This document shows, piece by piece, positions 27,020 to 43,513 of a stretch of 64,000 bases of DNA. Numbering within the stretch: position 1 is the stretch's first letter; each line of letters begins with the position of its first letter. Origin of the DNA: Ignavibacterium sp. (GTDB taxonomy: Bacteria > Bacteroidota > Ignavibacteria > Ignavibacteriales > Ignavibacteriaceae); assembly GCA_018335755.1 (NCBI GenBank), contig JAGXRK010000011.1:62001-126000 (forward strand), in the 5' to 3' direction. The notes below the pieces were generated by a model that made no database searches, had not been told where the DNA came from, and saw nothing but the letters and a program-made list of their open reading frames with translations. Made by a program: the position numbers and the translations under genes.

Positions 27020-27048
27020 AAAATTTATAAAATGGAAAAATTTAATAT

Positions 27049-27109
27049 TCCGCGATAGCTCAATGGTGGAGCATTCGGCTGTTATCCCGACAAAGTCGGG
27101 ATGCAAGTT
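27049..27109 (+). pseudogene. Broken tRNA-Asn copy B with inserted palindrome
   Basis: Bases 27049-27084 match the first half of tRNA-Asn up to CTGTTA in the anticodon loop. TCCCGAC-AAA-GTCGGGA at 27085-27101 then takes the place of the anticodon-stem 3' strand and variable loop, and TGCAAGTT of the T-arm follows before similarity ends. It is not functional. The palindrome is of the same type as in copy A and downstream of glyS. Confidence 0.8.
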
Positions 27110-27436: not shown

Positions 27437-27463
27437 TAAATTGATTGAGAATATATTATACAT

Positions 27464-27535
27464 TCCGCGATAGCTCAATGGTGGAGCATTCGGCTGTTAA
27501 CCGAAGGGTTGCAAGTTCGAGTCTTGCTCGCGGAG
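27464..27535 (+). tRNA. tRNA-Asn (anticodon GTT)
   Basis: The cloverleaf is complete: acceptor TCCGCGA (27464-27470) with TCGCGGA (27528-27534), D-arm starting GCTC, anticodon stem TTCGG/CCGAA around CTGTTAA with anticodon GTT, and T-arm GCAAG-TTCGAGT-CTTGC. CCA is not encoded. The antisense serine recombinase frame runs through its 3' half, so the gene is the likely integration site of the element to its right. Confidence 0.95.
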
Positions 27536-29116: not shown

Positions 29117-29139
29117 TATTAATCCTCCTGCATTTATTA

Positions 29140-29161
29140 AGCAGCCGGACTACCGGCTGCT
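29140..29161 (-). promoter_or_regulatory. Perfect hairpin just upstream of the recombinase ribosome-binding site
   Basis: AGCAGCCGG (29140-29148) and CCGGCTGCT (29153-29161) form a nine-pair stem around four bases. It lies between the companion gene and the recombinase start, about 10 bases from AGGAGG. There is no T-run, so a translational control site or protein-binding operator is more likely than a terminator. Confidence 0.45.
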
Positions 29162-29166
29162 ACTAA

Positions 29167-29319
29167 TTATACTTTTCTATTTTTAATTGTACGTACAACA
29201 TTTATTAAATTACAAAGTTTTATGGCCTTTGATAATGCGGCTTCTTTTGTCAATTCTTCATTAAAAGTTTTTTTGTACAATATTTGAAACTTTGAAATTT
29301 GTTCATTACTTAGTTTCAC
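29167..29319 (-). CDS. 50-residue companion gene of the serine recombinase
   Basis: A short frame beginning with GTG encodes KLSNEQISKFQILYKKTF, then NEELTKEAALSKAIKL and a basic tail (IKNRKV). It is predicted helical. Small proteins with the same 'L-S-x-E-Q-I-x-K-F-Q-x-x-Y-K-K' opening are commonly encoded immediately before serine recombinases in integrative elements and phage-like elements; I recognise the pattern from memory. The gene ends 50 bases before the recombinase start and is on the same strand. Function is unknown; a directionality or DNA-binding role is speculation. Confidence 0.7.
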   Translation of the reverse strand: MKLSNEQISKFQILYKKTFNEELTKEAALSKAIKLCNLINVVRTIKNRKV

Positions 29320-29374
29320 TGAATTAATTTCCAAAGACTTGATATTGTAGCTTCAACAACATCAAACCAAATTT

Positions 29375-29542
29375 TTATGGAAGTGATACTCCAACAATAT
29401 CATTCCCATCGATTGTAGTACTAACACCATTACATTGGATGAAGTTGTTATCGCTGGATTCCCTAAATAACTCGGTATTCTTATACCGAATTGTGAAGGT
29501 TATTAAGTAAGCGGCTGCTACACCGCTTATGTTGATTGTTAT
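29375..29542 (-). CDS. Open frame with no standard start, possible 55-residue protein
   Basis: This frame is open from a TGA upstream and reads TINISGVAAAYLITFTIRYK, then a polar stretch ending GNDIVGVSLP. It looks like protein but has no ATG, GTG or TTG. ATA at 29540-29542 overlaps the TAA of the upstream gene (sequence ATAA) and follows GAGAAAGG by about nine bases, so translational coupling with an ATA start is conceivable. It could equally be the remnant of a longer gene. Low confidence. Confidence 0.35.
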   Translation of the reverse strand: MTINISGVAAAYLITFTIRYKNTELFRESSDNNFIQCNGVSTTIDGNDIVGVSLP

Positions 29543-30225
29543 CTGAGTAAACCTTTCTCATATAACGATATGATTGATTTAACTCTCAAGTTTTCTGAAT
29601 TGGATTTTAAAAACGTCTTTTTGAATTGATCGTTTTTTGCTGAGCAACCTTTCATAAGTCTAGTCAGTGCATAAAAGGATAAAGAATGAATACAGTCAAA
29701 GGATAAAGGTTCAAAAATATTTTCAAAAATAATGTTACTTAACTTCCCTAAATTATTTTTATTATACTTTTCCTCAGTGTCCTTTTGAACATTAATAATA
29801 ATTTCATCCAATGTTGCGGTCACACTGATTCTATCTAAGAGCAGAAATTCAACTTCGGAAATATCCGAGAATTGTTGATTTTCCAATTGCTTATTCCTAA
29901 TACATTCTAAAAGATCCGATTTTTTATACATTGGAATCATTGCGTGTCCAGATGACTGTAAATCCTGATTTATTCCTCCAAATTCTGTATGTACACCTTT
30001 AGCAAAAGAATGATCATAATCATAACTGCTCACTTTTGCCAGGCAGCCAAATTCTGCCAATCCATCTAAATCATTTTTTACAAATGCTATTTCTTTATTC
30101 TCTTTGACCGCCTGAATTAATAATAATTCGTCTTCCTCATCAAATACTTGCGGTACTTTTGAGCAGCCAAATGGTAGCACAACTTCCTTTGTTCTTATCA
30201 TAACATATTTTCTATTTTCGATCAT
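29539..30225 (-). CDS. Unknown protein encoded with two TPR genes in the element
   Basis: A 228-residue soluble protein with no signal peptide. The N-terminal half is strand-rich (KYVMIRTKEVVLPFGCSKVPQVF), the middle contains an HxEFGG-type stretch (GVHTEFGG), and the C-terminal half is helical. GGAAA precedes the ATG. It is the last gene of a three-gene unit, 15 bases after a TPR gene. I do not recognise the family. A tail of 'SxxNLRVKSIISLYEKGLL' suggests a helical protein-interaction end. Confidence 0.65.
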   Translation of the reverse strand: MIENRKYVMIRTKEVVLPFGCSKVPQVFDEEDELLLIQAVKENKEIAFVKNDLDGLAEFGCLAKVSSYDYDHSFAKGVHTEFGGINQDLQSSGHAMIPMYKKSDLLECIRNKQLENQQFSDISEVEFLLLDRISVTATLDEIIINVQKDTEEKYNKNNLGKLSNIIFENIFEPLSFDCIHSLSFYALTRLMKGCSAKNDQFKKTFLKSNSENLRVKSIISLYEKGLLR

Positions 30226-30240
30226 AATTTTTCCTTTATC

Positions 30241-30975
30241 TTAATTTTGATTTTTGTTCTGATTCATTTGTTGATTCCATTCTGCAGCCAGCTTTAATTT
30301 TAGCCATCGCATTCCAAACTCGTCATTTAATTCCGCTGACTTATATAAAAATTCATCAGACATATCCGTCTGACCTAAGTGATAATATGACGTTGCCAAA
30401 ATGTAGTATGCATGACCTAACAATCCGTCATCAGCGATAGCAGGTATAATTGGATTTAATATCTTTTTTGCTGGGTCGTAAGAACCATTTATATTGAATA
30501 TTTTAGCTTTATATACGATCATTTTTTCATCTTTACGATTTAGTTTTAGTAAATCTTCAATTTGCTCTAATGCATCACTATATTTACCCTGTGCATAAAG
30601 ACTTTGGACTTTAATTTTTCTAAGATTGATTGCTTCTTCACTATCTTGAGTACCTTTAAGGGCTATAAACTTATCACAGCATTCAATTGCTTTGTTGCAG
30701 TCGAGAGACATATAGTAATAATTTGTCAGACTATATAGGGCGAGATCATTTGAATTATCAATAATTAATATCTCCTCTAGTGGGGTAATTGCTCCCAATA
30801 GATCACCCTTTGCCTCCTGTATTAATGATTTTAGTAATCGTGACTGTGTATCTTCAGAATGACTCTTTAAATACTCTTCCAGTAATTTTTCTGCTACATT
30901 GAAATCCCCTCTCCTTAACGCTTCTGTAACCCGATCAAAAAAATCTTCCGGATCATAAAACATAAAATCTTCCAT
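30241..30975 (-). CDS. Cytoplasmic TPR-repeat protein
   Basis: A 244-residue protein with TPR motifs, for example GDFNVAEKLLEEYLKSHSED, GAITPLEEILIIDNSNDLAL and CNKAIECCDKFIALKG. No signal peptide is present, so it is cytoplasmic. It follows the other TPR gene by one base and has GGAG before its ATG. Twin TPR genes in one unit suggest a paired scaffold; function within the element is unknown. Confidence 0.75.
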   Translation of the reverse strand: MEDFMFYDPEDFFDRVTEALRRGDFNVAEKLLEEYLKSHSEDTQSRLLKSLIQEAKGDLLGAITPLEEILIIDNSNDLALYSLTNYYYMSLDCNKAIECCDKFIALKGTQDSEEAINLRKIKVQSLYAQGKYSDALEQIEDLLKLNRKDEKMIVYKAKIFNINGSYDPAKKILNPIIPAIADDGLLGHAYYILATSYYHLGQTDMSDEFLYKSAELNDEFGMRWLKLKLAAEWNQQMNQNKNQN

Positions 30976-30976
30976 A

Positions 30977-31672
30977 CTATTTTTTCTCCTTTTGTTTATT
31001 TATTAAATCTAATAGATCTTTTGGATGCTGAAAGTCTGGATGGTTAGAAACTAATTTTTTGCAGATCTTTTCCGCACTATTTATCTTATTGTTCAGATAG
31101 TAATTATATGCTTTTCCATAGAGAGCTATTTTATCATCTGGATGTACCAGCAGTACAGTATCATATATTTCATTCGCAATACCATAAGCACCCAACTTAC
31201 TGTAGCAATTTGCCCCACCTATTGCCGCGTGAGTTGCCTGGTGAAAATTCTCATCACTACCTAGTGCCACTGTATAGCTTCCTAATGCATTAAGTATGAG
31301 TCCTTTATTCTCCTGATACTCGGCGTATTGATCATACACTTCAAAATCTGCTTTACCTAACGCTATCAAATGCTCCAGAGTTTTAATATAAAGTTTATTA
31401 TCTCCAGTCTGATCGTATAACCATGCTTTATACTTAAGCGCTTGAGTATCCTCTGGATCGATGTCTAGTGCGTTTAGTACATAGTGCAACGCTTTAGCAT
31501 AATCTTTGCGACGAAAATGAATATGAGTCAAGGCCTTCAGTACTACAATGTCCTTTCCATCAAATTTATTTAGTAATTCAAGGATTGGTAACACTTTATT
31601 GTGCGGTTTGGTATCAATATCATCCAAAACTTTATTAAGAGTTACTAGATAGTTTTCATTTGTTATTTTCAT
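30977..31672 (-). CDS. Cytoplasmic TPR-repeat protein
   Basis: A 231-residue protein with TPR motifs such as KDYAKALHYVLNALDIDPED and GAYGIANEIYDTVLLVHPDD. It is the first gene of the three-gene unit that continues with the second TPR protein and the 228-residue protein. The structured intergenic module described at 31751-31923 ends 79 bases upstream of its start codon, on the same strand. Function unknown. Confidence 0.75.
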   Translation of the reverse strand: MKITNENYLVTLNKVLDDIDTKPHNKVLPILELLNKFDGKDIVVLKALTHIHFRRKDYAKALHYVLNALDIDPEDTQALKYKAWLYDQTGDNKLYIKTLEHLIALGKADFEVYDQYAEYQENKGLILNALGSYTVALGSDENFHQATHAAIGGANCYSKLGAYGIANEIYDTVLLVHPDDKIALYGKAYNYYLNNKINSAEKICKKLVSNHPDFQHPKDLLDLINKQKEKK

Positions 31673-31750
31673 AAAATTTCCTTTTTAGTTAATAATTGAA
31701 TATTATTTGTATCAATTAGTAGAGTCAATGAACTATTGGTAATAAAAGAG

Positions 31751-31923
31751 GTCCGATGTTATTAGTGTGGCAGGAACTAATTGTGCCGTCCTAGGCTTTC
31801 GCCAACATCGGACCAAAACATTAGTCGGCCCAACTAATAAACATCGCTGGACCTGGTTATATTCTTAAAGAGGGGAAATGAGACCCTTGCCACAGAATAC
31901 TACTACCATTATAGTTTTGTGGC
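31751..31923 (-). ncRNA. Structured module 1 (pseudoknot domain plus two hairpins)
   Basis: Plus-strand coordinates are given. P1 pairs 31751-31760 with 31804-31813 (10 perfect pairs). Inside, ATTAGT 31761-31766 pairs with ACTAAT 31776-31781; its loop segment GGCA 31769-31772 pairs with TGCC 31784-31787, a crossing pseudoknot; GGC-TTTC-GCC 31794-31803 is a mini-hairpin, GAAA loop on the minus strand. CGGCCCA 31826-31832 faces TGGACCT 31848-31854. GCCACA 31889-31894 pairs with TGTGGC 31918-31923 around ACTACCATTATA (31902-31913). The same order recurs at 32582 and 34789. The minus strand is the likely RNA because neighbouring genes read that way. Confidence 0.6.
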
Positions 31924-31951
31924 AAAAAAATAACGGCTTCTATATATGAAG

Positions 31952-32040
31952 GGTCAGTCTGATAGTAAGGAGTAGGAACTATCTATACTCCGTCTTTGGC
32001 GTTCACCACATCACTGACCTAATTAAAATTTAACGGCCCA
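31952..32040 (-). ncRNA. Structured module 2 (pseudoknot domain)
   Basis: P1 pairs GGTCAGT 31952-31958 with ACTGACC 32013-32019. GATAGT 31961-31966 pairs with ACTATC 31978-31983. GGAGTA 31969-31974 in the loop pairs with TACTCC 31986-31991, six perfect crossing pairs. TGG 31997-31999 and CCA 32006-32008 close the mini-hairpin. CGGCCCA follows at 32034-32040. An alternative helix, GACCCTT 31882-31888 with AAGGGTC 31949-31955, would compete with P1, so two exclusive folds are possible. Confidence 0.6.
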
Positions 32041-32140
32041 GGAAATCAATCTGAGCTTAATTATATTGCTTATGAGAAGGCGGTAATCCATACCTCTTGT
32101 CACACAACATATCTACTCTAGAAGTAAGTTTTATTACGGG

Positions 32141-32398
32141 CTAACTTTTCGGTTTAATAAAAAATATTCGTTCGTAACCTATTCTTGCCAATTCATTCAA
32201 GTCAATCCCTAATAAAGTGGCTTCCGCTTCGCCCGGCCATAGACCTGTCCATCTTGCAAATTCTTTGTCGTGCCCTTCGCAATCGCAAGTCAACCTTTGT
32301 CCGCCACAAACAGAACATCTTTCAACGTCACAATTTTCTTTATGTATTTCTCCGGGCTTTGCTCCACAATCGTGGCATATTTTTAATCCTGGTAACAT
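32141..32398 (-). CDS. Small cysteine-rich zinc-ribbon protein
   Basis: An 85-residue protein. Cysteine pairs KICHDCG, ENCDVERCSVCG and CDCEGHD suggest one or two zinc ribbons, followed by ARWTGLWPGEAEA. The pattern 'C-x-x-C-G-x-x-P-G-x-x-H-x-x-x-C-D-V-E-R-C' is widespread in bacterial and phage genomes, without a known function. The start at 32398 is chosen over the longer frame (to 32509) because GGAGAACTAAA lies just before this ATG and the extra N-terminus is not protein-like for the family. Confidence 0.75.
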   Translation of the reverse strand: MLPGLKICHDCGAKPGEIHKENCDVERCSVCGGQRLTCDCEGHDKEFARWTGLWPGEAEATLLGIDLNELARIGYERIFFIKPKS

Positions 32399-32581
32399 TT
32401 TAGTTCTCCTTCTATTTCGCCTGTAAAAAATTAACCCGCAACTCAGAAGACTGCAAGAATAGTTCAGGCTTTGTTTATAAATTATGTTAGTTAAATTTCT
32501 CAAGTTCATCTTTCTGTTACTTTCAGCTTGTTAGTTGCCAAGCTGTTAGTAGCCTCACCTCTAGAGCTTTTTAAATAAGAG

Positions 32582-32767
32582 GGCCAGTGCCGATAGTAAG
32601 GGATCGGAACTATCTGGATCCCGTCATGGGCTTTCACCACATCACTGACGCATTAAAACTTTTCGGTAAGGGTAAACCCTTCCTGGACCTAATTATTATG
32701 TGTGTCAATTAAGGCTGTATTTACGCAACCGATCTACTACATAATAACTACCACTGAATTAAGTAGA
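32582..32767 (-). ncRNA. Structured module 3 (pseudoknot domain plus two hairpins)
   Basis: P1 pairs CAGTG 32585-32589 with CACTG 32643-32647. GATAGT 32592-32597 pairs with ACTATC 32609-32614. GGGATC 32600-32605 in the loop pairs with GATCCC 32617-32622. Compared with module 2, the loop bases differ (GGAGTA against GGGATC) and the partner changes to match, which is compensatory change supporting the pseudoknot. TGG/CCA (32627-32629, 32637-32639) close the mini-hairpin. A hairpin AAGGGT...ACCCTT ends in TGGACCT (32684-32690). TCTACT 32733-32738 pairs with AGTAGA 32762-32767 around AACTACCA. It fills the gap between two small genes. Confidence 0.6.
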
Positions 32768-32772
32768 TATCA

Positions 32773-33171
32773 TCAACTAGCATTAATCAATCTGTCTTTA
32801 TAATTGCCTAGTGCGCTCTCTTTAATCTCTATCATCTTTTCTTCAACCTTTCGGACATATTTGGGATCAATTTCATCGATGAAAGTAAAGAGATATGCTT
32901 GCTCATTTATTTTATATTCATCTTCTTCTATCAGATCCAGGACAGATATAATCAGATCGTGGGTAATTTGATGTCTATCTTTACCTTCAAATGCATAAAC
33001 ACCCTGCACATCATTGTCCTGTACCTCTCTATCCGTTTTCCAAAATTTCATAGTGCCCCCACTATTTTTTTGAACTCCTAAAATATTTTGACCCTTGAGC
33101 AGTATCTGAAAGAAAGGTTCTTCATAGGGTGGTTGTGTTATAAACATTGTACTAAATAAAGGAAATTTCAT
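32773..33171 (-). CDS. Orphan 132-residue protein of the element
   Basis: A soluble, acidic-to-neutral protein with a strand-rich first half (PFFQILLKGQNILGVQK) and a helical C-terminus (PKYVRKVEEKMIEIKESALGN). GGAG lies nine bases before the ATG at 33171. Flanked on both sides by structured intergenic sequence. I do not recognise the family and no catalytic motif is visible. Confidence 0.65.
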   Translation of the reverse strand: MKFPLFSTMFITQPPYEEPFFQILLKGQNILGVQKNSGGTMKFWKTDREVQDNDVQGVYAFEGKDRHQITHDLIISVLDLIEEDEYKINEQAYLFTFIDEIDPKYVRKVEEKMIEIKESALGNYKDRLINAS

Positions 33172-33257
33172 AAAATTTCTCCTGTTTGAATTTTTATAAA
33201 TGTGTTAATTATTAATCATAGCGTAAAATGAAAAACATAAGTTGAGATTCCACAGCT

Positions 33258-33317
33258 TTATATACCAAATGCTGAACTAGCACCTAGTCTGAAAGTAACT
33301 TTTGTATTTCTTGACAT
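33258..33317 (-). CDS. Possible 19-residue peptide
   Basis: ATG at 33317, preceded by TTAGGAAATTAAAA, opens a 19-codon frame reading MSRNTKVTFRLGASSAFGI and ending TAA. The ribosome-binding site is reasonable and the peptide is basic. It stands alone in a 197-base gap. Chance occurrence is quite possible. Confidence 0.3.
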   Translation of the reverse strand: MSRNTKVTFRLGASSAFGI

Positions 33318-33368
33318 TTTTAATTTCCTAATTAAATTGAGGCGGGTTATCCCCACCCCTTGTTTAAA

Positions 33369-33731
33369 TTATTCAAGTATTACCATCTTGGGAAAGAATG
33401 GCCTACTTCCATCCAAATTAATTGCATCCATCACTATAACATCTTCCTCAACAGTTGCATCGTACTCGAATTGATAAACATAAGGTTTACCAGGTATCAC
33501 TTTTTTTATTCTATCAACTTTGAAAGTGAAGAATTTTTCGTATACCTTAAAACCTGTATTCTGATCAACATCAAATACGCATGCACCTACCTTATCTGTA
33601 TTAAGGGAATATCTAAATGCTGCCTGCCAATTAATCGTATCTGGACGATTTAATAATTGGTCTATCCACTTATCTGCATCCTTGTAACCAGGTTGAAGAG
33701 TGTATAATAAAGGGATCAAGTTTGAGTTCAA
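33369..33731 (-). CDS. Orphan protein of the element with an ideal Shine-Dalgarno
   Basis: A 120-residue soluble protein, rich in beta-strands (KVGACVFDVDQNTGFKVYEKF, PYVYQFEYDATVEEDVIVMD). The sequence AAGGAGGTGATC (minus strand, 33746-33735) is the full complement of the usual 16S rRNA 3' end. It places the start at TTG 33731, eight bases after AAGGAGG, rather than at the GTG (33740) that lies inside the Shine-Dalgarno itself. Strong translation is expected. Family not recognised. Confidence 0.65.
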   Translation of the reverse strand: MNSNLIPLLYTLQPGYKDADKWIDQLLNRPDTINWQAAFRYSLNTDKVGACVFDVDQNTGFKVYEKFFTFKVDRIKKVIPGKPYVYQFEYDATVEEDVIVMDAINLDGSRPFFPKMVILE

Positions 33732-33734
33732 AAC

Positions 33735-33746
33735 GATCACCTCCTT
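33735..33746 (-). promoter_or_regulatory. Full-length Shine-Dalgarno AAGGAGGTGATC
   Basis: The 12 bases match the complement of the canonical 16S 3' tail. This decides the TTG start at 33731 and shows that the element uses Shine-Dalgarno initiation. Confidence 0.75.
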
Positions 33747-33892
33747 GAACTCGAAGGGGTCCAGAACATACTGGAATTGAAGAGCTTACCACTCTTATAA
33801 TCATAATTTTTCTGAATTACTTAATGACTTGGAATGACAAATCATCAAATATTATATCCATTCTTTTCTTTCCTTATAAATGTGGGAATGAT

Positions 33893-34045
33893 ATTAGGTC
33901 CACTAAAATGTCCGGCCCACACCCTACTTGACTTCACGCCTAATGTGGGCCTAATTGTAAGTAAATCTTTAAGGTCCAATAGGTCTCCTAGCCTTCAAAC
34001 CTTTGCTACTTGATTCACATACAACTACCGTCCTGGATTAGTAGC
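33893..34045 (-). ncRNA. Structured module 4 (two hairpins, no clear pseudoknot domain)
   Basis: GGCCCACA 33914-33921 pairs with TGTGGGCC 33944-33951, the module's CGGCCCA/TGGGCC hairpin in an extended form. Further along, GCTACT 34005-34010 pairs with AGTAGC 34040-34045 around a loop containing AACTACC. This is the same order and spacing as the last two hairpins of modules 1, 3 and 6. Confidence 0.5.
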
Positions 34046-34070
34046 ATACTCAGGCAGCTTTGTAAAATTA

Positions 34071-34200
34071 GAGGTTCAGGTAGTGGATAGAAAGTAGGTA
34101 GAAGCACCACCATGTCCATATTTCCTACTCAACCTGACCTCAGGGCAAAATGATGGGTGGCAGAGCCATCTTTGCCATCCTAGCTTTCACAACACGGACC
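34071..34200 (-). ncRNA. Structured module 5 (H-type pseudoknot plus pseudoknot hairpin)
   Basis: GAGGTTCAGG 34071-34080 pairs with CCTGACCTC 34133-34141 with one bulge. Inside, GTGG 34083-34086 can pair with CCAC 34107-34110 while AGTAGG 34093-34098 pairs with CCTACT 34124-34129, a crossing arrangement. The segment TGTCCATATTTCC (34113-34125) is identical to one at 35959. A second unit follows: GATGG 34152-34156 with CCATC 34166-34170, loop GGCA 34159-34162 pairing with TGCC 34173-34176, then AGCTTTCA, matching module 1. Confidence 0.5.
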
Positions 34201-34355
34201 CAGGGAGTTATATCTGATTAGAATATAATGGAAAGCAATTCGAGCCATTATAAGAGTGTGACCAACTTACAACATCATTGTAAAATCTGAAGGATTTTGA
34301 TATAGAGGGTTCAAAGAAAAAATGTTAGATCTTTAAATATTTTTGAGCTTTAAAA

Positions 34356-34745
34356 TTAATTTTGGTTATTATTTATAATAATTTTGCCTGTTCTAATTTC
34401 TTGGCCATTCATAATATTAATCTCTTCTTCAAATTCACCAGTAGAAAAGATTTCAACAACTTCGAGGTTATAGAAATCGACCTCTTTACCTAATTCTGCA
34501 AGGTAAGCAGAATCTTTTTTAGCAGTCATCCAGACAGCTTTTGCAGCATCCGCTGTTTTTGAAACCTCATCGTACAGTACGAGTTTGAGAGCAAACTCAC
34601 TAGGTAAACTAGGAATGTGAGTTGACATTCCGTAAAATTTCCGAATCGAATCCTCCAAAATCATATCCAGATATTCATCTGCATAATCAGGATCTTTCGG
34701 AATGGCAAACACAGCTTTAACACTAAGACTTTTATTTTTTCCCAT
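34356..34745 (-). CDS. Orphan 129-residue protein of the element
   Basis: A soluble protein with basic N-terminus (MGKNKSLSVKAVFAIPKD), a helical middle (TADAAKAVWMTAKKDSAYLAEL) and an asparagine-rich tail. GGAAA lies before the ATG at 34745. Structured module 6 ends 44 bases upstream of the start. Family not recognised. Confidence 0.65.
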   Translation of the reverse strand: MGKNKSLSVKAVFAIPKDPDYADEYLDMILEDSIRKFYGMSTHIPSLPSEFALKLVLYDEVSKTADAAKAVWMTAKKDSAYLAELGKEVDFYNLEVVEIFSTGEFEEEINIMNGQEIRTGKIIINNNQN

Positions 34746-34788
34746 TTAACATTTCCTTTATTTTTTATTTGTAAATGATAAAAACATA

Positions 34789-34969
34789 GGACTGATATTG
34801 TAGCGTGAACCAGAGCCCGGCAGCAGCTACTATAGCCTTTCTCTTGGGATGGTCATATCAGTCCATTTAAATTAAGCGGCCCACTCTTGAGGATGGACCT
34901 TATTATGTTGTGGGGAATCGTGGATTTTTTGCCACTGACAACATAACTACCATTATAACTCGAGGTGGC
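34789..34969 (-). ncRNA. Structured module 6 (P1 domain plus two hairpins)
   Basis: P1 pairs GGACTGATAT 34789-34798 with ATATCAGTCC 34855-34864, ten perfect pairs. GTAGC 34800-34804 pairs with GCTAC 34826-34830, and CCAGAG 34810-34815 in its loop can pair with CTCTTGG 34841-34847 with one bulge. CGGCCCA 34877-34883 faces TGGACCT 34894-34900. GCCAC 34931-34935 pairs with GTGGC 34965-34969 around ACTACCATTATA (34946-34957), identical to the loop word in module 1. The module stands 44 bases before the start of the minus-strand gene at 34745. Confidence 0.6.
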
Positions 34970-34994
34970 AGTTACAACAGCTTTGAAGATAAGA

Positions 34995-35166
34995 GGACTG
35001 ATGTCCTGGTCACCCGCAATATTCCCAGGTCTACGGGTTCAAAATTGTTTTCGCAACACATCAGCCAAAAATATGCGGTCCGACTAGTGATTCTTAATCC
35101 GTGTGGCGGGATCACTTGAGGCTAATAGTCTCTGGATTACTCGTAGAGCTTTCGCCCGGTCAGACC
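34995..35166 (-). ncRNA. Structured module 7 (two pseudoknot domains in tandem)
   Basis: First domain: CTGATGT 34998-35004 with ACATCAG 35058-35064; CCTGG 35005-35009 with CCAGG 35025-35029; loop ACCCG 35012-35016 with CGGGT 35034-35038; TTG/CAA mini-hairpin at 35045-35056. Second domain: GGTCCGAC 35077-35084 with GTCAGACC 35159-35166 (one mismatch); AGTGAT 35086-35091 with ATCACT 35111-35116; loop TAATCC 35095-35100 with GGATTA 35134-35139; GAGCTTTCGCCC 35146-35157. Sequence differs from other modules but the order of helices is the same. Confidence 0.6.
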
Positions 35167-35312
35167 ATCAATTCGCTACAGAATGAAATCAATACTCCCG
35201 GTCATCTGTATTTTACTTTGATATAGATGAGCTATCACAGAGATATAAAAGACCCTTCTATTAATTAATGGGAAAGAAGTGAAGATCTTTTTAACCTGTT
35301 AATGCGGAGTCT

Positions 35313-35720
35313 TTAATTATTTCTAGCAATTGTGGATAAATTTGCTCCGATTTTTAAATAACCTAAAAAAGGACCATATGTGGGCAGGCGATTCAAAGTA
35401 AACTCACCTTTGCATAAAACTTCTTGTACTTCGAGCCTATAGAAGTAATGAAAACCTAATAAACATTTTTCATCGAAGTAATCAAAACTCGTTTTTACAA
35501 TAGCTGCCCTTATTTGTGAACCTTTAATTGAATTTGGGAGCGGAGCGGTATATAAAATTGCCATAGTTTTTGGAAGCAAGTGATTATTTGTCCCATAATT
35601 CCTAATGATTACCTCTGTATAGTTGAAGCGTAATGTGTCTTTGAGTAAAGTAAGGTCCTCATCCGAGCAAATATCAAGACCACTATATGCCTTATAAGTT
35701 TTTGTTGATTCAGTATGCAT
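35313..35720 (-). CDS. Orphan 135-residue protein of the element
   Basis: A soluble protein with no recognised domain; strand-rich in the middle (LLGFHYFYRLEVQEVLCKG) and glycine-rich near the end (YGPFLGYLKIGANL). GGAG lies nine bases before the ATG at 35720. It is flanked by the 71-base direct repeats on its upstream side and by module 7 downstream. Confidence 0.65.
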   Translation of the reverse strand: MHTESTKTYKAYSGLDICSDEDLTLLKDTLRFNYTEVIIRNYGTNNHLLPKTMAILYTAPLPNSIKGSQIRAAIVKTSFDYFDEKCLLGFHYFYRLEVQEVLCKGEFTLNRLPTYGPFLGYLKIGANLSTIARNN

Positions 35721-35835
35721 TTTTATCTCCTATTTGTTATCGAATAAATTAGAAATCATTTACAGCTTGGAGTAAAGTAAATAAACCTTATTCTGTTCTT
35801 AAGTCCATCTACCGCCAGGGATTACTCCCGCCGGA

Positions 35836-35906
35836 ACCTATTAAAATCTGTAGTGTAGTTTTCCCCCGTACATATTAATGGGAAAGAAGAGCAGATAATA
35901 TTAACC
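35836..35906. repeat. 71-base direct repeat, copy 1
   Basis: Identical to 36005-36075. It starts ACCTATTAAAATCTG and ends with GATAATATTAACC. A shorter, diverged piece (ATTAATGGGAAAGAAG and following bases) occurs near 35262-35296. The two copies flank structured module 8. Confidence 0.85.
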
Positions 35907-35916
35907 AAATATTCAG

Positions 35917-36005
35917 TCCCAGCCGTGACGTTAGTCTTGCGGTGGAAGCAGTCACGTCTGTCCATATTTCCGATTGACCGTTCAGTAGGTTTACTACCGC
36001 TGGGA
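35917..36005 (-). ncRNA. Structured module 8
   Basis: TCCCAGC 35917-35923 pairs with GCTGGGA 35999-36005. CGTGAC 35924-35929 pairs with GTCACG 35951-35956, and TGGA 35943-35946 in the loop can pair with TCCA 35961-35964. TGTCCATATTTCC (35959-35971) is identical to part of module 5. A further small hairpin GTAG/CTAC occurs at about 35985-35997. Confidence 0.5.
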
Positions 36006-36075
36006 CCTATTAAAATCTGTAGTGTAGTTTTCCCCCGTACATATTAATGGGAAAGAAGAGCAGATAATATTAACC
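36005..36075. repeat. 71-base direct repeat, copy 2
   Basis: Exact copy of 35836-35906. The perfect identity in an otherwise diverged intergenic region suggests a recent duplication or active maintenance. The remaining 76 bases before the sigma-like gene's stop show only AT-rich sequence. Confidence 0.85.
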
Positions 36076-36151
36076 TAGCTAAAACCATAAATATTACCAC
36101 AACCAATATAATTTTTAAAAATATATTACTGATTATATAAACCTCACCTAA

Positions 36152-38065
36152 TTACATTTCAGTTAATAATTCCTTTAATTCTGATTCTTGGGATAATCTA
36201 ATTAAGATTTTATTTACTCTTTTCGAAACTGCAGGTATGGAAATTTTAAGTTTTTTCCCAATCTCTTCATAGGGTTCCTTTTTAATTAAGTGCTCGTATA
36301 GCAATTCTTGTTCTTCTGCATTACAGTATTTTTCAATTATATCTCTGAAAAAAAATTCTTTAAAATTAAAATTAATTGATTTTTTTATATCAACACCAGG
36401 TTTTTTAACAGACATCGTATTATAGTTAATCTTATCTGTTTCAGTTTTTGAAGTGTCCTCTTCCAATACAGAAAAACTCTTAAAATGTCCCGAGAGATTA
36501 AGCATTTCACTCTCAGGTTCATCAGAGTCTATTTCAATATCTTTTAAATCAATTTCTTCATATTTAGAAATTTCACTTTCTTTTTCGTTTTTCTCCACTT
36601 TGAATGTATCAAGATCTTTTTCATCCCAAGATTTATTTTCCATGAATTGATCTACTACGAATCTTTTTTTGTACTCTAAATTCTGTTTACGCTCGTTCTC
36701 TTTTGACCGACTTAAACTTAGCCAGAATACATAAAATTTAAGAAAAGATAGAAATAACCGTACATTTACTAATTTAAGATCGATATCATTAATTTTATGA
36801 AGTTTAAAGACTGAAGAGAGCAAAAAGGTATATAGGTTAAGATTTTTAAAGTTAAGATATTTTAATAAAAGTGGATCAAATACTGGAGTTCTGTAACCGA
36901 GATATGGTGTACCTATATGCATTAGAATAAATAACCTTTTTTCTGGCTTAGTGAGGTTTTCGTTCTTATTTAATTCATCGAAAGTTTTTTTTGCCCATTC
37001 TCTATAACAACGTCGGAATAACATTTCAATTTCTAAATTAATTTGATCAACCATTCCTTGTGTACTGGAGAACTCATCATTGATATACACGAGAACTAAA
37101 AAACTATTCAATGGCTCAGGTTGTGAATGGTAGTGCTTGATTCCATCCATCCAATTCTGAATCTTTTCTATTTTCTCTTTACTTTTCTTTCCAACAAGAA
37201 ATTCATTCAACGATAGAAGCGCTTCCATTACTATTTTATTAAGCTCTTCATTGGTTACGACTCTTTGTGTCTTACTGTCCTTATTTTCTTTTAATTCAGG
37301 TGACTGTTGCTCATTCTGAGGATATCTGGAAAGCATCGATTTTACTGTTTTTAGTACCTTACCGAAATCTGTTGATCTTAACTCTTCGAAAATCGGATCT
37401 TCAGAAAGGTAGTCTTTTAATTCATCAATTTCTCTTTTTGTATATCTCGTTCTAAATTTTTCTTTATTATTCTGAATATTTTCACTAATATTTTGAATAT
37501 TAATTTTCAAAAAATATTGAACGATTTTCTCTAAATAATCTTTGGAAAAACGTATTTGTGTAGGCAATGTTTGATCAATTTCGTCAATTTCATCATATGC
37601 CGCTTCAAAAAATAATTTTTGAACGGAATAGTCGGTCACATCTAAAATTGAATATTCAATTTTTGACTTTACATCTTCCTCTTCCTTCTTTGTAGGCCAG
37701 GTTTTTCCCTGCTTAACAAGTAGTTCCCGTATGAGATTATTATAGTCCATCGAATTTATCTTGAATGTTCGAGTATTCTTTAATGTACTGCGGAGATATT
37801 GACCCTTTACATCAAAATGTGTTGCTCGATAATACTCTAAATAAAAGGTTATATTGAATTCAGAAAATTGATCTGATCCATATGTCTTAAGAAAAGGATG
37901 TAAAAATGATTCCGAAGAAAGAAGTTTTTCCCAATCTGGAATAAAAATTCTAACTTCACCGGAATTTTGAAGACCTGTTTCCTTCTTAAAGCCTTTCCTA
38001 AAATCAAGATCGAGTGTCTCAATTATTAAACCTGTGCCGTCGCTAAATGTTATTTCTTTTTCCAA
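36152..38065 (-). CDS. Large protein with a C-terminal sigma-region-4-like HTH
   Basis: A 637-residue soluble protein. The last 80 residues (from FKEFFFRDIIEKYC) contain LLYEHLIKKEPYEEIGKKL followed by KISIPAVSKRVNKIL, a helix-turn-helix of the sigma-70 region 4/LuxR type: 'Y-x-E-I-G-x-x-L-x-I-S-x-x-A-V-S-K-R'. The remaining 550 residues are helical and unrecognised; no region 2 motif is evident. The apparent start is TTG 38065. As the first gene of the leftward arm it may be a transcription factor that controls the small genes and their structured leaders. That is inference from position and the HTH. Confidence 0.7.
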   Translation of the reverse strand: MEKEITFSDGTGLIIETLDLDFRKGFKKETGLQNSGEVRIFIPDWEKLLSSESFLHPFLKTYGSDQFSEFNITFYLEYYRATHFDVKGQYLRSTLKNTRTFKINSMDYNNLIRELLVKQGKTWPTKKEEEDVKSKIEYSILDVTDYSVQKLFFEAAYDEIDEIDQTLPTQIRFSKDYLEKIVQYFLKINIQNISENIQNNKEKFRTRYTKREIDELKDYLSEDPIFEELRSTDFGKVLKTVKSMLSRYPQNEQQSPELKENKDSKTQRVVTNEELNKIVMEALLSLNEFLVGKKSKEKIEKIQNWMDGIKHYHSQPEPLNSFLVLVYINDEFSSTQGMVDQINLEIEMLFRRCYREWAKKTFDELNKNENLTKPEKRLFILMHIGTPYLGYRTPVFDPLLLKYLNFKNLNLYTFLLSSVFKLHKINDIDLKLVNVRLFLSFLKFYVFWLSLSRSKENERKQNLEYKKRFVVDQFMENKSWDEKDLDTFKVEKNEKESEISKYEEIDLKDIEIDSDEPESEMLNLSGHFKSFSVLEEDTSKTETDKINYNTMSVKKPGVDIKKSINFNFKEFFFRDIIEKYCNAEEQELLYEHLIKKEPYEEIGKKLKISIPAVSKRVNKILIRLSQESELKELLTEM

Positions 38066-38721
38066 TTATTCCACCCTTTAAAATTTTTCTTTTACATTTA
38101 TTATTTAATATAAATAATTTAAAATTATTTAATTAAAATATTTAACATTTTTGAAAAATTGAGTTCTCTTTTAAAATTATTTCTTCTATTGATTTTCATA
38201 ATTTAATTCAGCTTAGTTTGCTTTAATTATTTCCAATGTTTGTTTTTCGCATAAATAGATTGGATTTTATTTCTATTGAGCTATTCAATTGCTGAAAATA
38301 CGGATTACTCTACTTTCATCTCTCGGTCGTGCACGTGCTAAAGCAAGTGTGATGAATAATAATGGCAATTTATGGATACCAAAATTCCCAAACAGAAGTG
38401 AGGCTAAAAATATTGGAGGTTGGAAAATGGTTACATATAAATTAGCCGTAAGATTTGGCCTGAATATAATCTCTTAATTTATAAATAATAGCATAAAAAC
38501 ATTTATTCAATAATTTGGATACAATTCACAAACTGATAATTGAAACTTTCAATATTATGGTTTCTTTATTTTGGATTTCAATATGTGTTCTTATATCCAA
38601 GAATTTTAGGTATTAATTACAATTTTGAAAAATTTACATATTGTTTCACTTTGATTGTACTTGAAAAATTAAGGATTCTGTGTGGTACACAAAATGAATA
38701 AATAAAATCAAAAAAATAAAA
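38066..38721. other. Divergent intergenic region between the two arms
   Basis: 656 AT-rich bases separate the leftward and rightward arms and must contain their promoters. A frame at 38289-38477 (TTG start, 62 codons) has no ribosome-binding site and no recognisable protein features. TGTGTGGTACACA near 38677 is a small imperfect palindrome. No structured module of the type seen at 31751-36005 was found here. Confidence 0.4.
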
Positions 38722-39102
38722 ATGAAATTCGACCCTGATATTACAATCAATGTTGTTAGAACTTGGGATGGTTTGATTAATCCTAGTTTAATCAAATGGA
38801 GTGGTGCAATTAATATTCACCGGAGGGATGCTAAAAGAATATTACAGCGTGAGATATGGAATTCCAGAAAATTTCATAATGATGGTGATGATTTTGTTTC
38901 GATATATATCTCAAGATTCTGGGGAGATGACGAAGGGATAGACTATTTATTACATCTTAAAGACCTGAAAAATGGTGAAACAAGAGTGACACCAATGTAT
39001 GAGATTGAATTTGTTAAGCATTCACATAGAGATGGTCGTAAAAATTATATTGTGTTCAGACAAAAAGATCACCTTCAGAAATTAAAAATAAGTATTAAAT
39101 AA
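38722..39102 (+). CDS. Orphan 126-residue protein, first gene of the rightward arm
   Basis: A soluble basic protein with strand/helix alternation and several tryptophans (RTWDGLINPSLIKWSGA, ISRFWGDDEGIDYLLHL). No known domain is recognised. There is no good Shine-Dalgarno before the ATG, only A-rich sequence. It precedes structured module 9. Confidence 0.6.
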   Translation: MKFDPDITINVVRTWDGLINPSLIKWSGAINIHRRDAKRILQREIWNSRKFHNDGDDFVSIYISRFWGDDEGIDYLLHLKDLKNGETRVTPMYEIEFVKHSHRDGRKNYIVFRQKDHLQKLKISIK

Positions 39103-39103
39103 T

Positions 39104-39254
39104 GGGTGTGGTAACTGCCATTCGTAGCTGAGACTATGAGGTAGCAGCGAAAGCTATGACGGGTTATGATTCTATAACAGGATGTGTATCTGATGTTTCC
39201 CTGGCCCACAGAGACATTAAATTGTCAGCCTCTAAATACATAAGTGCCACACCC
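39104..39254 (+). ncRNA. Structured module 9, plus-strand copy
   Basis: GGGTGTGG 39104-39111 pairs with CCACACCC 39247-39254, enclosing 135 bases. The inner stretch AGCAGCGAAAGCTATGACGGG is close to the minus-strand reading of module 3 (GTGAAAGCCCATGACGGG), including the GAAA loop and the 'ATGACGG' that follows. GTTAT and ATAAC flank GATTCT next. TGGCCCA occurs at about 39203. The module lies 72 bases upstream of the plus-strand gene at 39327, so it keeps its orientation relative to transcription. Confidence 0.5.
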
Positions 39255-39326
39255 TTCTTATTAAAAAGCCTGGCAACTAGTAGCGCTTTCGTATCAATTA
39301 TTTTTAATTTATCATTTGAGGACAAA

Positions 39327-39722
39327 ATGAAACATAAAATAAAATCATTCGAAACTAACAAAGAAAATTTATTTATCGATACCAATCATCCTGACTACAA
39401 ATGGATTAAGAAGCATTACAACGATCTAGATGTTTCAGATTCTGAGCGTGAATGGGCAGATTTTGATGATTCAATTATTGATGTAAAAGTTGGAAAACAC
39501 TCGGTTAAATATATTGCTCCAAATACTTTTCCAAAGCAGGCAACTGAAACCATTGCTATCGTAGGTAAATCGAAAGGGAAGGATTTCATCGTTGATAGGT
39601 TAGTTCATTGTCGTTTTATGTATGATGGTCCAAATACTTATGAGATTTTTGGATTGGTCGACAAGGATAAAACAGAATTTAATAAAGATGGAGTATTAGT
39701 TCTGAAGCAGAAGAAGCTTTAA
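39327..39722 (+). CDS. Orphan 131-residue protein downstream of module 9
   Basis: A soluble protein with an acidic middle (NDLDVSDSEREWADFDD) and strand-rich C-terminal half (HSVKYIAPNTFPKQATETIAI). The frame is open further upstream, but ATG 39327 is preferred because GAGGACAAA lies right before it and the upstream part overlaps module 9. Family not recognised. Confidence 0.65.
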   Translation: MKHKIKSFETNKENLFIDTNHPDYKWIKKHYNDLDVSDSEREWADFDDSIIDVKVGKHSVKYIAPNTFPKQATETIAIVGKSKGKDFIVDRLVHCRFMYDGPNTYEIFGLVDKDKTEFNKDGVLVLKQKKL

Positions 39723-40659
39723 TTATGATCTGCGAAATGCTGTTCGGTTATCGGATTTAATGAGGAGTAGATATTAAAAGTTCCCAGCTATTTAACAGGA
39801 GAGAGGTGTAGAATAGTAATTGTAAAATTATAATAAATCTTTAAACACACCCCAAAATCTAATGCTCAGAGCTCCATACTCATGTTTTAAACCACTTTTT
39901 TACTTGAACCCATGGTTGTGGGCGGCTAAAATAAAATCTCATGACTACGGGCTTCTATTAATGTTTTAAGAATAATCTCTTTCATTATAAAATAAATTGA
40001 AGAGTGCAGGTCAAGTGAAAATGAATTCCTAAAAAATAAAGTGTTAGAAGCTGTTAGGCATTTGTTTAAATTTTAACTTATTTCAAAGGTTACTAACACC
40101 TCTAACAATTTTTTAATTTTACTGGGCGTTACTTAAACCCTTATTGTGCATGGGGTTATAGAGAGCACTAGCAGTATATATACTTTTTAAATATTTAAAT
40201 AATAAATATATATATATACCTTATCGACGATAAGAAAATAAAATAATATATATGGGCTGGATTTAGCCGCTGATTGGGAGGAGGTGTTTTACTCTACTAC
40301 CTTACCTAACCCCTTTAAATACATGCCATTACAAGGATTTTAACCTAAAATCGTTGCTGATTGGACTGCGTTTTTGGATTAAATATGCATGTTTTTTCTA
40401 ACAACAAATGCTAGGAATGTTAGCAGATTTAATAATGAATGTATTCTAATAATTTTTATTTTCATTGTTACTTGACGGCATGCTGAAATTTAAATATATT
40501 GAATAAGAGCAGACAGTATGATGTTTGCTTTGAAAACCTGCAAAAGACCACTTCTAAAACACACCAAGAGACAACCCGAATAATTTACAACCGAAAACTA
40601 ATTTATTAGGAATGCTCTTTCAGTGAGAGGGCATTCCATTTGAAAAATATTTGGAGAAA
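39723..40659. other. AT-rich intergenic region, candidate replication origin
   Basis: 937 bases without a convincing gene. It includes a very AT-rich tract (about 40175-40215) followed by the palindrome CTTATC-GAC-GATAAG at 40220-40234. It lies directly upstream of the DUF5659-like and primase/helicase genes. AT-rich unwinding tract, palindrome and adjacent primase together suggest an origin used when the element is excised; no experimental support exists here. Confidence 0.35.
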
Positions 40660-40956
40660 ATGAAAATGCAGAATTACATAACGAGAGACTTCTATGCTGC
40701 TGGCTACCTTCTTGCAGAGGGCTTCAAACTGGTTTCACATTCACGAATCGGTAAAATCACTCTATTCGAATTCGAAGGTAATCAGTCAGTCAAAGAAGCA
40801 GCAGATAAATATTTTACTATGCAGACACGGGTTGAACCGGTCGCTTATGGGAATGCCTTGAGGTCATTAAAATCGATCTTGCATTCTTACGATAAATTAA
40901 ATGCAGATGGAGATGTAAATAATTATGTTAAACAATACAGAGGATGCAAACCTTAA
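40660..40956 (+). CDS. DUF5659-like small protein upstream of the primase/helicase
   Basis: A 98-residue protein beginning with a TRDFYAAGYLLAEGF block, 'T-x-D-x-x-x-A-x-Y-L', typical of DUF5659, a family often encoded next to VirE-N primase genes. TTGGAGAAA precedes ATG 40660. Its 3' end overlaps the primase gene by 32 bases. Function unknown; co-translation suggests a replication accessory role. Confidence 0.75.
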   Translation: MKMQNYITRDFYAAGYLLAEGFKLVSHSRIGKITLFEFEGNQSVKEAADKYFTMQTRVEPVAYGNALRSLKSILHSYDKLNADGDVNNYVKQYRGCKP

Positions 40957-43513
40957 TCAGAAAAAAGAATTCTCAGAATATGAGAATGTAATTGTGTCCT
41001 GGGCGGATACGGTAAGTATCACCAAATTTGAAAAAGTTACTTTAGCAGATGTTTTTGAAGCCATTAAAGGTGATCAAGAATTAAAGAAAAAAATAGATCT
41101 AATACGCTCGATAAAGGATGCTAAAAAAAGACAAGATAAAAAATTTGAAATTCTGCCTTACTTTGTAATAGGAGAATTCACAGACAACACTAGATTAAAT
41201 AAAAACCTGATTTCTACCCAACATATGATTTTCGATTACGATCATCTTGGGAGAAAACTAAAAGGAAAAAGAAAGCAGTTAATTGAAGATCCACGAGTAA
41301 ATTTCATATTCACTTCACCGAGCGGAGACGGATTAAAAGTTGGTTATAAGTTAGATAATCCAATTACCGACTTTGAAACATTTTCAGCAATATATAAATA
41401 CTACGCAAATCAACTTGGTCTTGAACTAGGTGAAAAAGCTGATAAAACTTCTGCGGCATCAAATCCTTGTTATTTTAGTATTGATGAGGATATACACACT
41501 AATCCAAATTCGCAGTTACTTACAACTAATATTTCAAAAACAGATCTCGATAAATTTAGAGCTCATACGAAAATTGATTGGGAAGAAGTTGAAGTTGCAT
41601 TAAAGGGCCTTAGCAGTCCAAGAACACCAATGGCAGAAAAAATGATTGGAATGATGATGGGAAGAAGTATACCACGGGAAATTGCTATTGGATTGCTGCG
41701 TGGATGGAATACATTAAATAAGCCACCCCTGACTGATGAAAAAATAATCTATACAGTAAATGATATGTATGATAGGTACGAGCAACAGATTGATAGAGTT
41801 CCTGTGAAGTTTTTAGAGAAAGGCAATGCATACTTCAAGAAAGTATTTGTAAATAGAAACTGGGAAGAGGTACAGGTAACAACATTTATGATCATTCCAA
41901 GTGAACTGCTTGTCTTAGAGGACAGTGATTGCTTAGTATGTGAAATAGTAACATCTGCGGGTATTCATTATGAAAATGTAAAAATTGAAAACACGGACTG
42001 GCACACAAAGCAAAAATTTCAGAAAGCTCTTGGGCATCAGGATTGTGTATTTCTTGGAACAGATCACGATTTGCAGTCGTTGTGCCAGTTTATTCAGGTT
42101 TTAATACCGGTAAGAAAAGAAGCAACCAAAGTCATTGGATTATATGACAATGATACCTGGGTAACAGAAAAATATAATATTAAGAAAGATTTAATTAGTA
42201 AGGATCAAACTATAGTTCCTTATGATCGAGGTAAGGATGCATTCTACCACGGCATTAACTACAAGGAAATAGATGATGAAGAATATCAGGAATTGATAAC
42301 TATTTTTTATAACAATGTATTCAGATTAAATGAAAAAAATAAAATAGCTTCTTACTTAGGGTGGTTATTCGCTACTCCTCTTAAACCATTATTGACAGAT
42401 CTGGCAGATGGGTTTCCACTTCTATTTCATCACGGATCTCAGGGAGCTGGAAAGACAAGTCTCTCTCAAATATTTATGAGATTAGTCGGATACTCAAACC
42501 CTGACCCTAAATCCTGCACGATGAAACTTTTTCCTATGCTCAAGATGCTGTCAAGCACCAATGCAATCCCTCAATGGTATGATGAATTTAAGAAAGCCGA
42601 TATGAAGGAAACGGATGTTGATAATTTGCTGAGGTATATGAGAAGAGCTTATAAGGGAGAGGTGGAAGATAAAGGTCGTGCTGATCAGACGGTTGAAACT
42701 TATAATATTACTGCACCTATGGCTGTGATGGGAGAATGGAATATAAATCAGCCCGCAATAATGGAAAGAGTAATATTGATACGGTTTAATGATTATGTCA
42801 AGAAGAATATGGAATCGCAGGAATCATTCAGAATTATTAAGGCGCTTGAGCTCGAAGCTTTTATGCCAAGATACATTAGTTATTGTCTGGGGCAGAACAT
42901 TCGGGCATTATATAATAGTTCACAAAAAATAGTGGTAAAGGAAATTGAAAGTACTTTTATTGCCCCAAGGATAGTAAATAATCTCTCAGTTATGATAACG
43001 GGATTAGAATTGTTCAAAGGTTTTGCGAAAGAATATCAAATTGAAATTCCAGAATTAGATTATAAAGAATTACTTAATTATCAATTAAAGGAAATTACCG
43101 GGTCTAATAATGGAAGTGTTAAATCTGCTGTTGATCAGCTTATAGAGGAGTTGGCAATAATGGCAGAGAACGGGGAGATAAATAACATTTATGATTATAA
43201 AAAAGTGAAGACAAGTAATTCAATAAATGCACTGGCAATCAGATTTAACAAAATATTTCCTGACTTTATAGTATATGCGAAAAAAACAAACTATGAGGGT
43301 GATTTGTTAGATAAATCATCATATCTAAAAATGTTTGATGATTGTGAGTATGTATTAAATAAAAACCTGGCAGTAAAGATTCAGGGAAAGGCACATAGAT
43401 GTTTGGTATTGGATATTGGAAAAGTAAAGAAGAAAGGAATAAATATAGATGGACTCCTAGCATCTGAAGAACCTGTTATAACACTACCAGATGATATTCT
43501 GGAATTAGAATAA
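40925..43513 (+). CDS. VirE N-domain primase with C-terminal helicase-like ATPase
   Basis: An 862-residue protein. The N-terminal third resembles the VirE-N/BT4734 domain linked to primase-polymerase modules (STQHMIFDYDHLG, FIFTSPSGDGLKVGYKL), followed by a PriCT-like helical region (PREIAIGLLRGWN). The C-terminal half contains a P-loop, HHGSQGAGKTSLSQIF, and a later acidic/Walker B-like block (AIPQWYDEFKKAD) with an arginine-rich patch (RYMRRAYKGEVEDKG). Such proteins initiate replication of integrative elements and plasmids in Bacteroidota. It is the clearest replication gene of the element. GTTAC repeats follow directly. Confidence 0.85.
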   Translation: MLNNTEDANLNQKKEFSEYENVIVSWADTVSITKFEKVTLADVFEAIKGDQELKKKIDLIRSIKDAKKRQDKKFEILPYFVIGEFTDNTRLNKNLISTQHMIFDYDHLGRKLKGKRKQLIEDPRVNFIFTSPSGDGLKVGYKLDNPITDFETFSAIYKYYANQLGLELGEKADKTSAASNPCYFSIDEDIHTNPNSQLLTTNISKTDLDKFRAHTKIDWEEVEVALKGLSSPRTPMAEKMIGMMMGRSIPREIAIGLLRGWNTLNKPPLTDEKIIYTVNDMYDRYEQQIDRVPVKFLEKGNAYFKKVFVNRNWEEVQVTTFMIIPSELLVLEDSDCLVCEIVTSAGIHYENVKIENTDWHTKQKFQKALGHQDCVFLGTDHDLQSLCQFIQVLIPVRKEATKVIGLYDNDTWVTEKYNIKKDLISKDQTIVPYDRGKDAFYHGINYKEIDDEEYQELITIFYNNVFRLNEKNKIASYLGWLFATPLKPLLTDLADGFPLLFHHGSQGAGKTSLSQIFMRLVGYSNPDPKSCTMKLFPMLKMLSSTNAIPQWYDEFKKADMKETDVDNLLRYMRRAYKGEVEDKGRADQTVETYNITAPMAVMGEWNINQPAIMERVILIRFNDYVKKNMESQESFRIIKALELEAFMPRYISYCLGQNIRALYNSSQKIVVKEIESTFIAPRIVNNLSVMITGLELFKGFAKEYQIEIPELDYKELLNYQLKEITGSNNGSVKSAVDQLIEELAIMAENGEINNIYDYKKVKTSNSINALAIRFNKIFPDFIVYAKKTNYEGDLLDKSSYLKMFDDCEYVLNKNLAVKIQGKAHRCLVLDIGKVKKKGINIDGLLASEEPVITLPDDILELE

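Follow-up and report, generated by a model that had tools for sequence, protein, structure and literature searches.

The window analysed here, a 64,000-nt stretch of a 4.27 Mb genome, contains an element whose nearest relative was found in the Ignavibacteriales MAG UBA8501 (G054). A serine recombinase adjoins the tRNA-Asn gene at 27464, which suggests integration of the element, and a 48-nt partial repeat of the start of that gene (27040-27087 versus 27455-27502, 92% identity), lying 415 nt ahead of it, is possibly an attachment-site relic. The right end was placed at about 45.4 kb because another genome, G026, shows the same chromosomal genes beyond its homologue of the 44902 gene. The element encodes a PrimPol-like replication protein, TPR proteins and a 637-aa protein, and has two arms of small orphan proteins that read outward from its centre; the adjacent small proteins 35313-35720 and 34356-34745 appear to be distant paralogues (hhalign E 0.0005). 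The 637-aa protein (36152-38065, minus strand) has a weak C-terminal match to sigma region 4, and its relatives are in G054 (88%) and in G032 (27%), where the spacers of the element are without modules of the kind described below. A third element of the same family (L063, G054:C40:582001-586825), truncated at the contig end, is present in MAG UBA8501.

Two small plus-strand ORFs in this element flank a spacer that holds a pseudoknotted RNA module (Table 1). The module follows a plan that it shares with minus-strand modules of the left arm: an outer stem (P1), a short hairpin, mostly with a GAAA tetraloop, an NNNGAN linker, and an H-type pseudoknot, the final strand of which adjoins P1.

Table 1. 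The module at 39104-39254, its flanking genes and the left-arm modules, in window positions.
Feature	Positions	Strand	Remark
126-aa ORF, family not assigned, companion gene of the module	38722-39102	+	Homologues in four elements all precede a module
Pseudoknot RNA module (main finding)	39104-39254	+	Begins 1 nt past the stop codon of 38722-39102
P1 outer stem, 5' strand GGGTGTGG	39104-39111	+	8/8 pairs in the window copy
GAAA-tetraloop hairpin AGC-GAAA-GCT	39146-39155	+	Extra pair on both sides in C11
Linker ATGAC	39156-39160	+	Belongs to the family signature NNNGAN; similar form across aligned modules
Pseudoknot helix 1, 5' strand GGG	39161-39163	+	From orthologue comparison
Pseudoknot helix 2, 5' strand TGTGTAT	39183-39189	+	Covaries in C11 and C18
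Pseudoknot helix 1, 3' strand CCC	39199-39201	+	CTC in C18, G-U tolerated
Pseudoknot helix 2, 3' strand ATACATA	39236-39242	+	Partner of 39183-39189
P1 outer stem, 3' strand CCACACCC	39247-39254	+	Pairs with 39104-39111
Decayed relative of a terminator hairpin	39255-39290	+	Intact counterpart in the C18 orthologue
131-aa ORF downstream	39327-39722	+	Adjacency to the module not conserved
Module M9, 65 nt, most compact	31750-31814	-	Descriptor and covariance models
Module M8	31952-32019	-	Descriptor and covariance models
Module M7 (module 3 of the initial annotation)	32583-32649	-	R2 and descriptor
Module M5a	34150-34220	-	P1 3' half altered at an indel boundary; G054 counterpart complete
Module M4, P1 GGACTGATAT/ATATCAGTCC	34789-34864	-	Pseudoknot read by hand only
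Module M3b, P1 GGCTGATGT/ACATCAGTC	34996-35066	-	Helices change jointly in C11 and C18
Module M3	35076-35167	-	Descriptor
Module M1, variant hairpin, longer linker	35915-36007	-	Read by hand only

The initial annotation had singled out a 17-mer of this spacer as nearly the minus-strand reading of part of M7. Both sequences are present, GCGAAAGCTATGACGGG at 39147-39163 on the plus strand and GTGAAAGCCCATGACGGG at 32620-32637 on the minus strand, and at these two places lie the single occurrences in the window of the exact patterns GAAAGC-N-ATGACGGG and GAAAGC-NN-ATGACGGG. At three mismatches, match counts for the 17-mer were no higher than in shuffled sequences; the letters alone are therefore thin evidence, and the structure is the stronger. 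The eight-pair outer stem that had been proposed to enclose the 17-mer is real, with every position paired. The heptamer TGGCCCA, also pointed out inside the stem, is located at 39202-39208 but is not a meaningful part of the module, as it reads TGACCTA and TAGCCCA in the orthologues.

Orthologues of the module lie in G054 at L006:16174-16325 (-) and L044:9444-9596 (-), with 77% and 86% identity, respectively, beside an adjacent gene of about 70% identity; between the window and contig C18, the module is 86% and the adjacent gene 69% identical at the DNA level. Every helix of the window module is retained in both G054 orthologues, on contigs C11 and C18. At P1 position 7, G-C is replaced by A-U in C18, a compensatory change; P1 has a single U-U mismatch in this copy, and a U-A pair becomes U-G in C11. 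The hairpin stem, AGC/GCT in the window, is extended to AGAC-GAAA-GTCT in C11, a pair having been gained on both sides. Helix 2 reads GGTGTT/AACACC in C11 and GGTGTAT/ATACATC in C18, so that relative to the window U-A has changed to G-C, G-U has changed to G-C, and one pair has been lost jointly. Covariation at P1 position 7, in the hairpin and in helix 2, drawn from only three distinct orthologues, is the behaviour of a structured RNA encoded on the sense strand, as is the fixed strand of the module relative to the genes. Plain folding energies did not clearly favour either strand.

We assessed orientation with a descriptor of the module plan, applied to six spacers of the window in sense and in antisense and to 3,000 dinucleotide shuffles. 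Among the left-arm modules, five scored 51.6-60, as against maxima of 48.9 in the 3,000 shuffled spacers and 34.8 on the antisense strands. The 39104-39254 module needs a long form of the descriptor, which recovered the exact fold on the sense strand at scores of 48.5 (window), 47.5 (C11) and 51.1 (C18); the corresponding antisense scores were 40.0, 29.3 and 43.5, and 120 dinucleotide shuffles of the window spacer reached at most 43.1. Over 144 kb, made up of all of the window plus 40 kb from each of C11 and C18, all descriptor matches of at least 50 in the three elements fell on the sense strand and within spacers only. Control scans gave six matches in 439 kb of viral sequence, several of them visibly GC-rich, and one match in 24 kb from relatives. 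All of these descriptor figures are optimistic in that the descriptor was built from the very modules scored.

A structural alignment of 12 modules (A6), made by hand with loops trimmed or padded, is 97% paired and shows covariation in all four helices, measures that are partly circular since the alignment was built to fit the structure. Within its helices G-U outnumbers A-C by 12 to 1, which is the expectation if the RNA has the sequence of the aligned strand. The covariance model R2, derived from A6, found 31752-31812, 32583-32649 and 31952-32019, all on the minus strand, and had no plus-strand match in the window; an earlier model, R1, produced a single weak plus-strand match that overlies M9's own stem. 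The proposal that the strand flips together with gene direction is borne out by the strong R2 matches in the window and the descriptor matches of at least 50, all of which are gene-sense. The opposite outcome, best matches on the antisense strand, was sought in covariance-model scans of both strands and was not seen; the strong R2 matches were all sense. The 39104-39254 module has a defined architecture, a sense orientation, a position restricted to spacers and covarying helices, and we consider it with high confidence to be a functional sense-strand RNA.

Comparison among elements indicates which gene the module belongs with. In each of the window, G054:C11, G054:C18 and G026/G061, a module lies -1 to 1 nt from the stop codon of the 38722 gene or its homologue. 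In C18, the 38722 homologue and the orthologous module, at the same spacing, are followed by an 11-pair intrinsic terminator, AAAAGCCTGGTCAACTGCCAGGCTTTT, and no gene is found for more than 500 nt beyond the module. No intrinsic terminator was reported after the module in the window or C11; the terminator is decayed in these two elements, where 39327 follows. The C18 homologue of 39327 sits elsewhere in the operon, after a different module (L044:10898-10971 (-), score 56.3). In G026/G061, GGGAGGTTCG...CGACCTCC comes directly behind a 27%-identical 38722 homologue and encloses GUCA-GAAA-UGGC and GAUGAA, with the same AU-rich flank behind the module; pseudoknot pairing in this distant G026 copy is ambiguous, its best descriptor score being 46.4 versus 40.9 in 60 shuffles. 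Because a 38722 homologue and its 3' module have been kept in four elements, the conserved unit is the gene plus the 3' module. The initial annotation had interpreted the spacer as RNA or as a directional promoter-leader unit, and not as a strand-neutral repeat. Its case for a sense-strand RNA holds, but a role as the promoter-leader of 39327 does not, given that the C18 orthologue has no gene behind it and that the 39327 homologue there lies behind another module; conserved adjacency, which a leader of 39327 should display, was not found. The promoter-like motif TATAATGG of some left-arm spacers does not occur in the 39104-39254 spacer.

A coding reading of the module was rejected: the 188-aa frame 39156-39722, which spans the module into 39327, is closed by TGA TGA in C11, and the C18 copy without a downstream gene further excludes it. 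Stop-codon readthrough was likewise discarded, as more in-frame stops, which are not conserved, come shortly after.

Database searches placed neither the RNA nor the small proteins in a known family. Rfam gave no match at gathering score in the window except tRNA, and none at E values up to 5 in 29000-41000; no covariance-model match to its known riboswitches, ribozymes or introns was obtained. The small proteins matched no Pfam, PADLOC, NCBIfam or PDB family, and their AlphaFold models were weak (pLDDT 43 for the 39327 protein and 64 for the 34745 protein, the latter model having no significant fold match). R1 and R2, applied to up to 295 relatives, found nothing credible beyond G000 and G054; matches in G041 (antisense inside a gene) and G011 (AU-rich) were false positives. 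Protein searches added only G026/G061 to the distribution, viral contigs yielded nothing related either to protein or to DNA-pattern searches, and literature searches returned no description that fits the module family. In the data searched, the family is narrowly distributed, within one lineage of elements.

The modules probably constitute a new family of intercistronic or 3'-UTR pseudoknot RNAs that act on their own carrier mRNA. The best explanation, which we favour tentatively, is that the element's small proteins, for the most part unrelated to one another, are expressed from strings of cistrons and that most inter-cistron spacers contain at least one compact RNA domain. The 39104-39254 copy belongs to the 38722 gene as its intercistronic or 3'-UTR module, being retained behind it in four elements irrespective of what comes next. 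Somewhat more cautiously, we infer that this module might act in cis as a punctuation element of the mRNA. A ribosome that terminates at the 38722 stop codon would cover the start of P1 with its footprint, so translation of this gene would hold P1 open and delay its closure. Once closed, P1 together with the pre-folded pseudoknot would create a stable block, and the closed module could protect the upstream cistron from 3' decay, separate the expression of the next cistron, or both. A terminator would sometimes come after the module, as with the intact example in C18 and the decayed one in the window. The tight stop-to-P1 spacing is limited to the 38722-type module, left-arm modules sitting farther from the preceding stop. 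Several of the latter end 43-77 nt ahead of the next start, which also fits a leader role; a 5'-leader function for left-arm modules is possible.

A trans-acting RNA-protein pair, similar to type III toxin-antitoxin systems, would have stable pseudoknot RNAs released from the transcript, each binding the small protein encoded in its own cassette and keeping it in check. We regard this as possible but rather unlikely. Tandem pseudoknots, hairpins and ~130-aa orphan proteins do lie side by side, AU-rich stretches border the modules, two adjacent left-arm proteins resemble remote paralogues, and the modules retain a common shape across diverging sequences, a pattern that cognate pairs should show. 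As in ToxI, CptI and TenpI, an H-type pseudoknot RNA is found beside a small-protein gene, sometimes in tandem and with a terminator nearby. However, the present modules are not tandem, near-identical short repeats; they are longer (65-150 nt), enclosed by P1, equipped with a GAAA hairpin and diverged in sequence. They match no known antitoxin RNA in Rfam, and the proteins have no toxin homology in Pfam, PADLOC, NCBIfam or PDB. In type III systems, according to a review (PMC5086642), pseudoknot repeats come first, then a terminator and then the toxin gene, whereas in C18, the best-resolved case, the gene precedes the RNA and the terminator comes last, the reverse order. Unlikely in our estimation is a further reading, according to which the modules would be a new functional class of pseudoknot RNA paired with the neighbouring orphan proteins as RNA-protein units, diversified for each cassette around one shape; such units of a mobile element could be toxin-antitoxin-like, anti-defence or replication-control devices.

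That the module is the 5' leader of the following gene, as a riboswitch, attenuator or initiation element, takes up one of the two roles proposed initially, and we find it improbable. The last module in several spacers ends 20-77 nt ahead of the next start, promoter-like TATAATGG motifs are sense-oriented in three left-arm spacers, and in some spacers a second GGTCC strand might compete for P1, all of which would suit a leader; the absence of a gene within 500 nt of the C18 orthologue, the different module before the 39327 homologue in C18, the lack of a riboswitch match in Rfam, and operon-first genes that have no module argue against it. A new type of processing RNA, such as a self-cleaving ribozyme, would account for compact, tandem, pseudoknotted domains in a mobile element and for the conservation of unpaired GAAA and GA letters, but Rfam yields no ribozyme match even at E 5 and a conserved cleavage site is not obvious, making this very unlikely. 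Least credible, to the point of being highly implausible, is a DNA-level site (for recombination, or as folded single-strand DNA) or a chance repeat: the cassette indel that distinguishes the window from G054 starts and ends within modules, as it might at such a site, yet copies in both arms and in relatives are strictly sense-oriented, G-U is in 12 to 1 excess and the pseudoknot covaries, all of which speaks for RNA.

Bacterial intergenic and 3'-UTR structured RNAs catalogued in Rfam are likewise conserved, covarying spacer domains; the modules differ in matching no family at E 5 and in having been detected in a single lineage of elements. The intergenic-region IRES of dicistroviruses, a ~150-nt RNA with several pseudoknots that separates two cistrons, offers an analogy only, since it serves a eukaryotic virus mechanism and shares no homology, and one module copy here precedes no gene. 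The module represents an RNA architecture not described before, supported by covariation, for which Rfam has no relative and of which a single small element carries diverged copies; these copies hold their shape while their sequence changes. That one copy is tightly coupled to a stop codon, and in one case ends a transcript, makes the choice between a cis role (mRNA punctuation) and a trans role (RNA-protein pair) directly testable.

The left arm offered several further observations. In G054:C11, helix 1 of the pseudoknot has changed on one side only in each of three left-arm modules, one of which, beside an NN gap, may be an assembly chimera. The TATAATGG motif occurs in sense orientation at 34957, 34252 and 31913 (-), with TGTTG or CGTTA ~17 nt upstream of each, and these sites may be promoters recognised by a special sigma factor. 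Hand reading of 31800-36100 (-) revealed apparent additional H-type pseudoknots upstream of modules, for example near 34980 (TGCCAC..ATGTTGT..GTGGCA..ACAACAT), and some GGTCC strands that could compete for P1. An 88-nt spacer unit is duplicated in tandem at 35819-35906 and 35988-36075 (95% identity), as it also is in G054. A two-gene cassette, 32666-34155, is absent from G054 (L007 1262-1399); both of its boundaries fall within modules, suggesting that the modules are recombination points.
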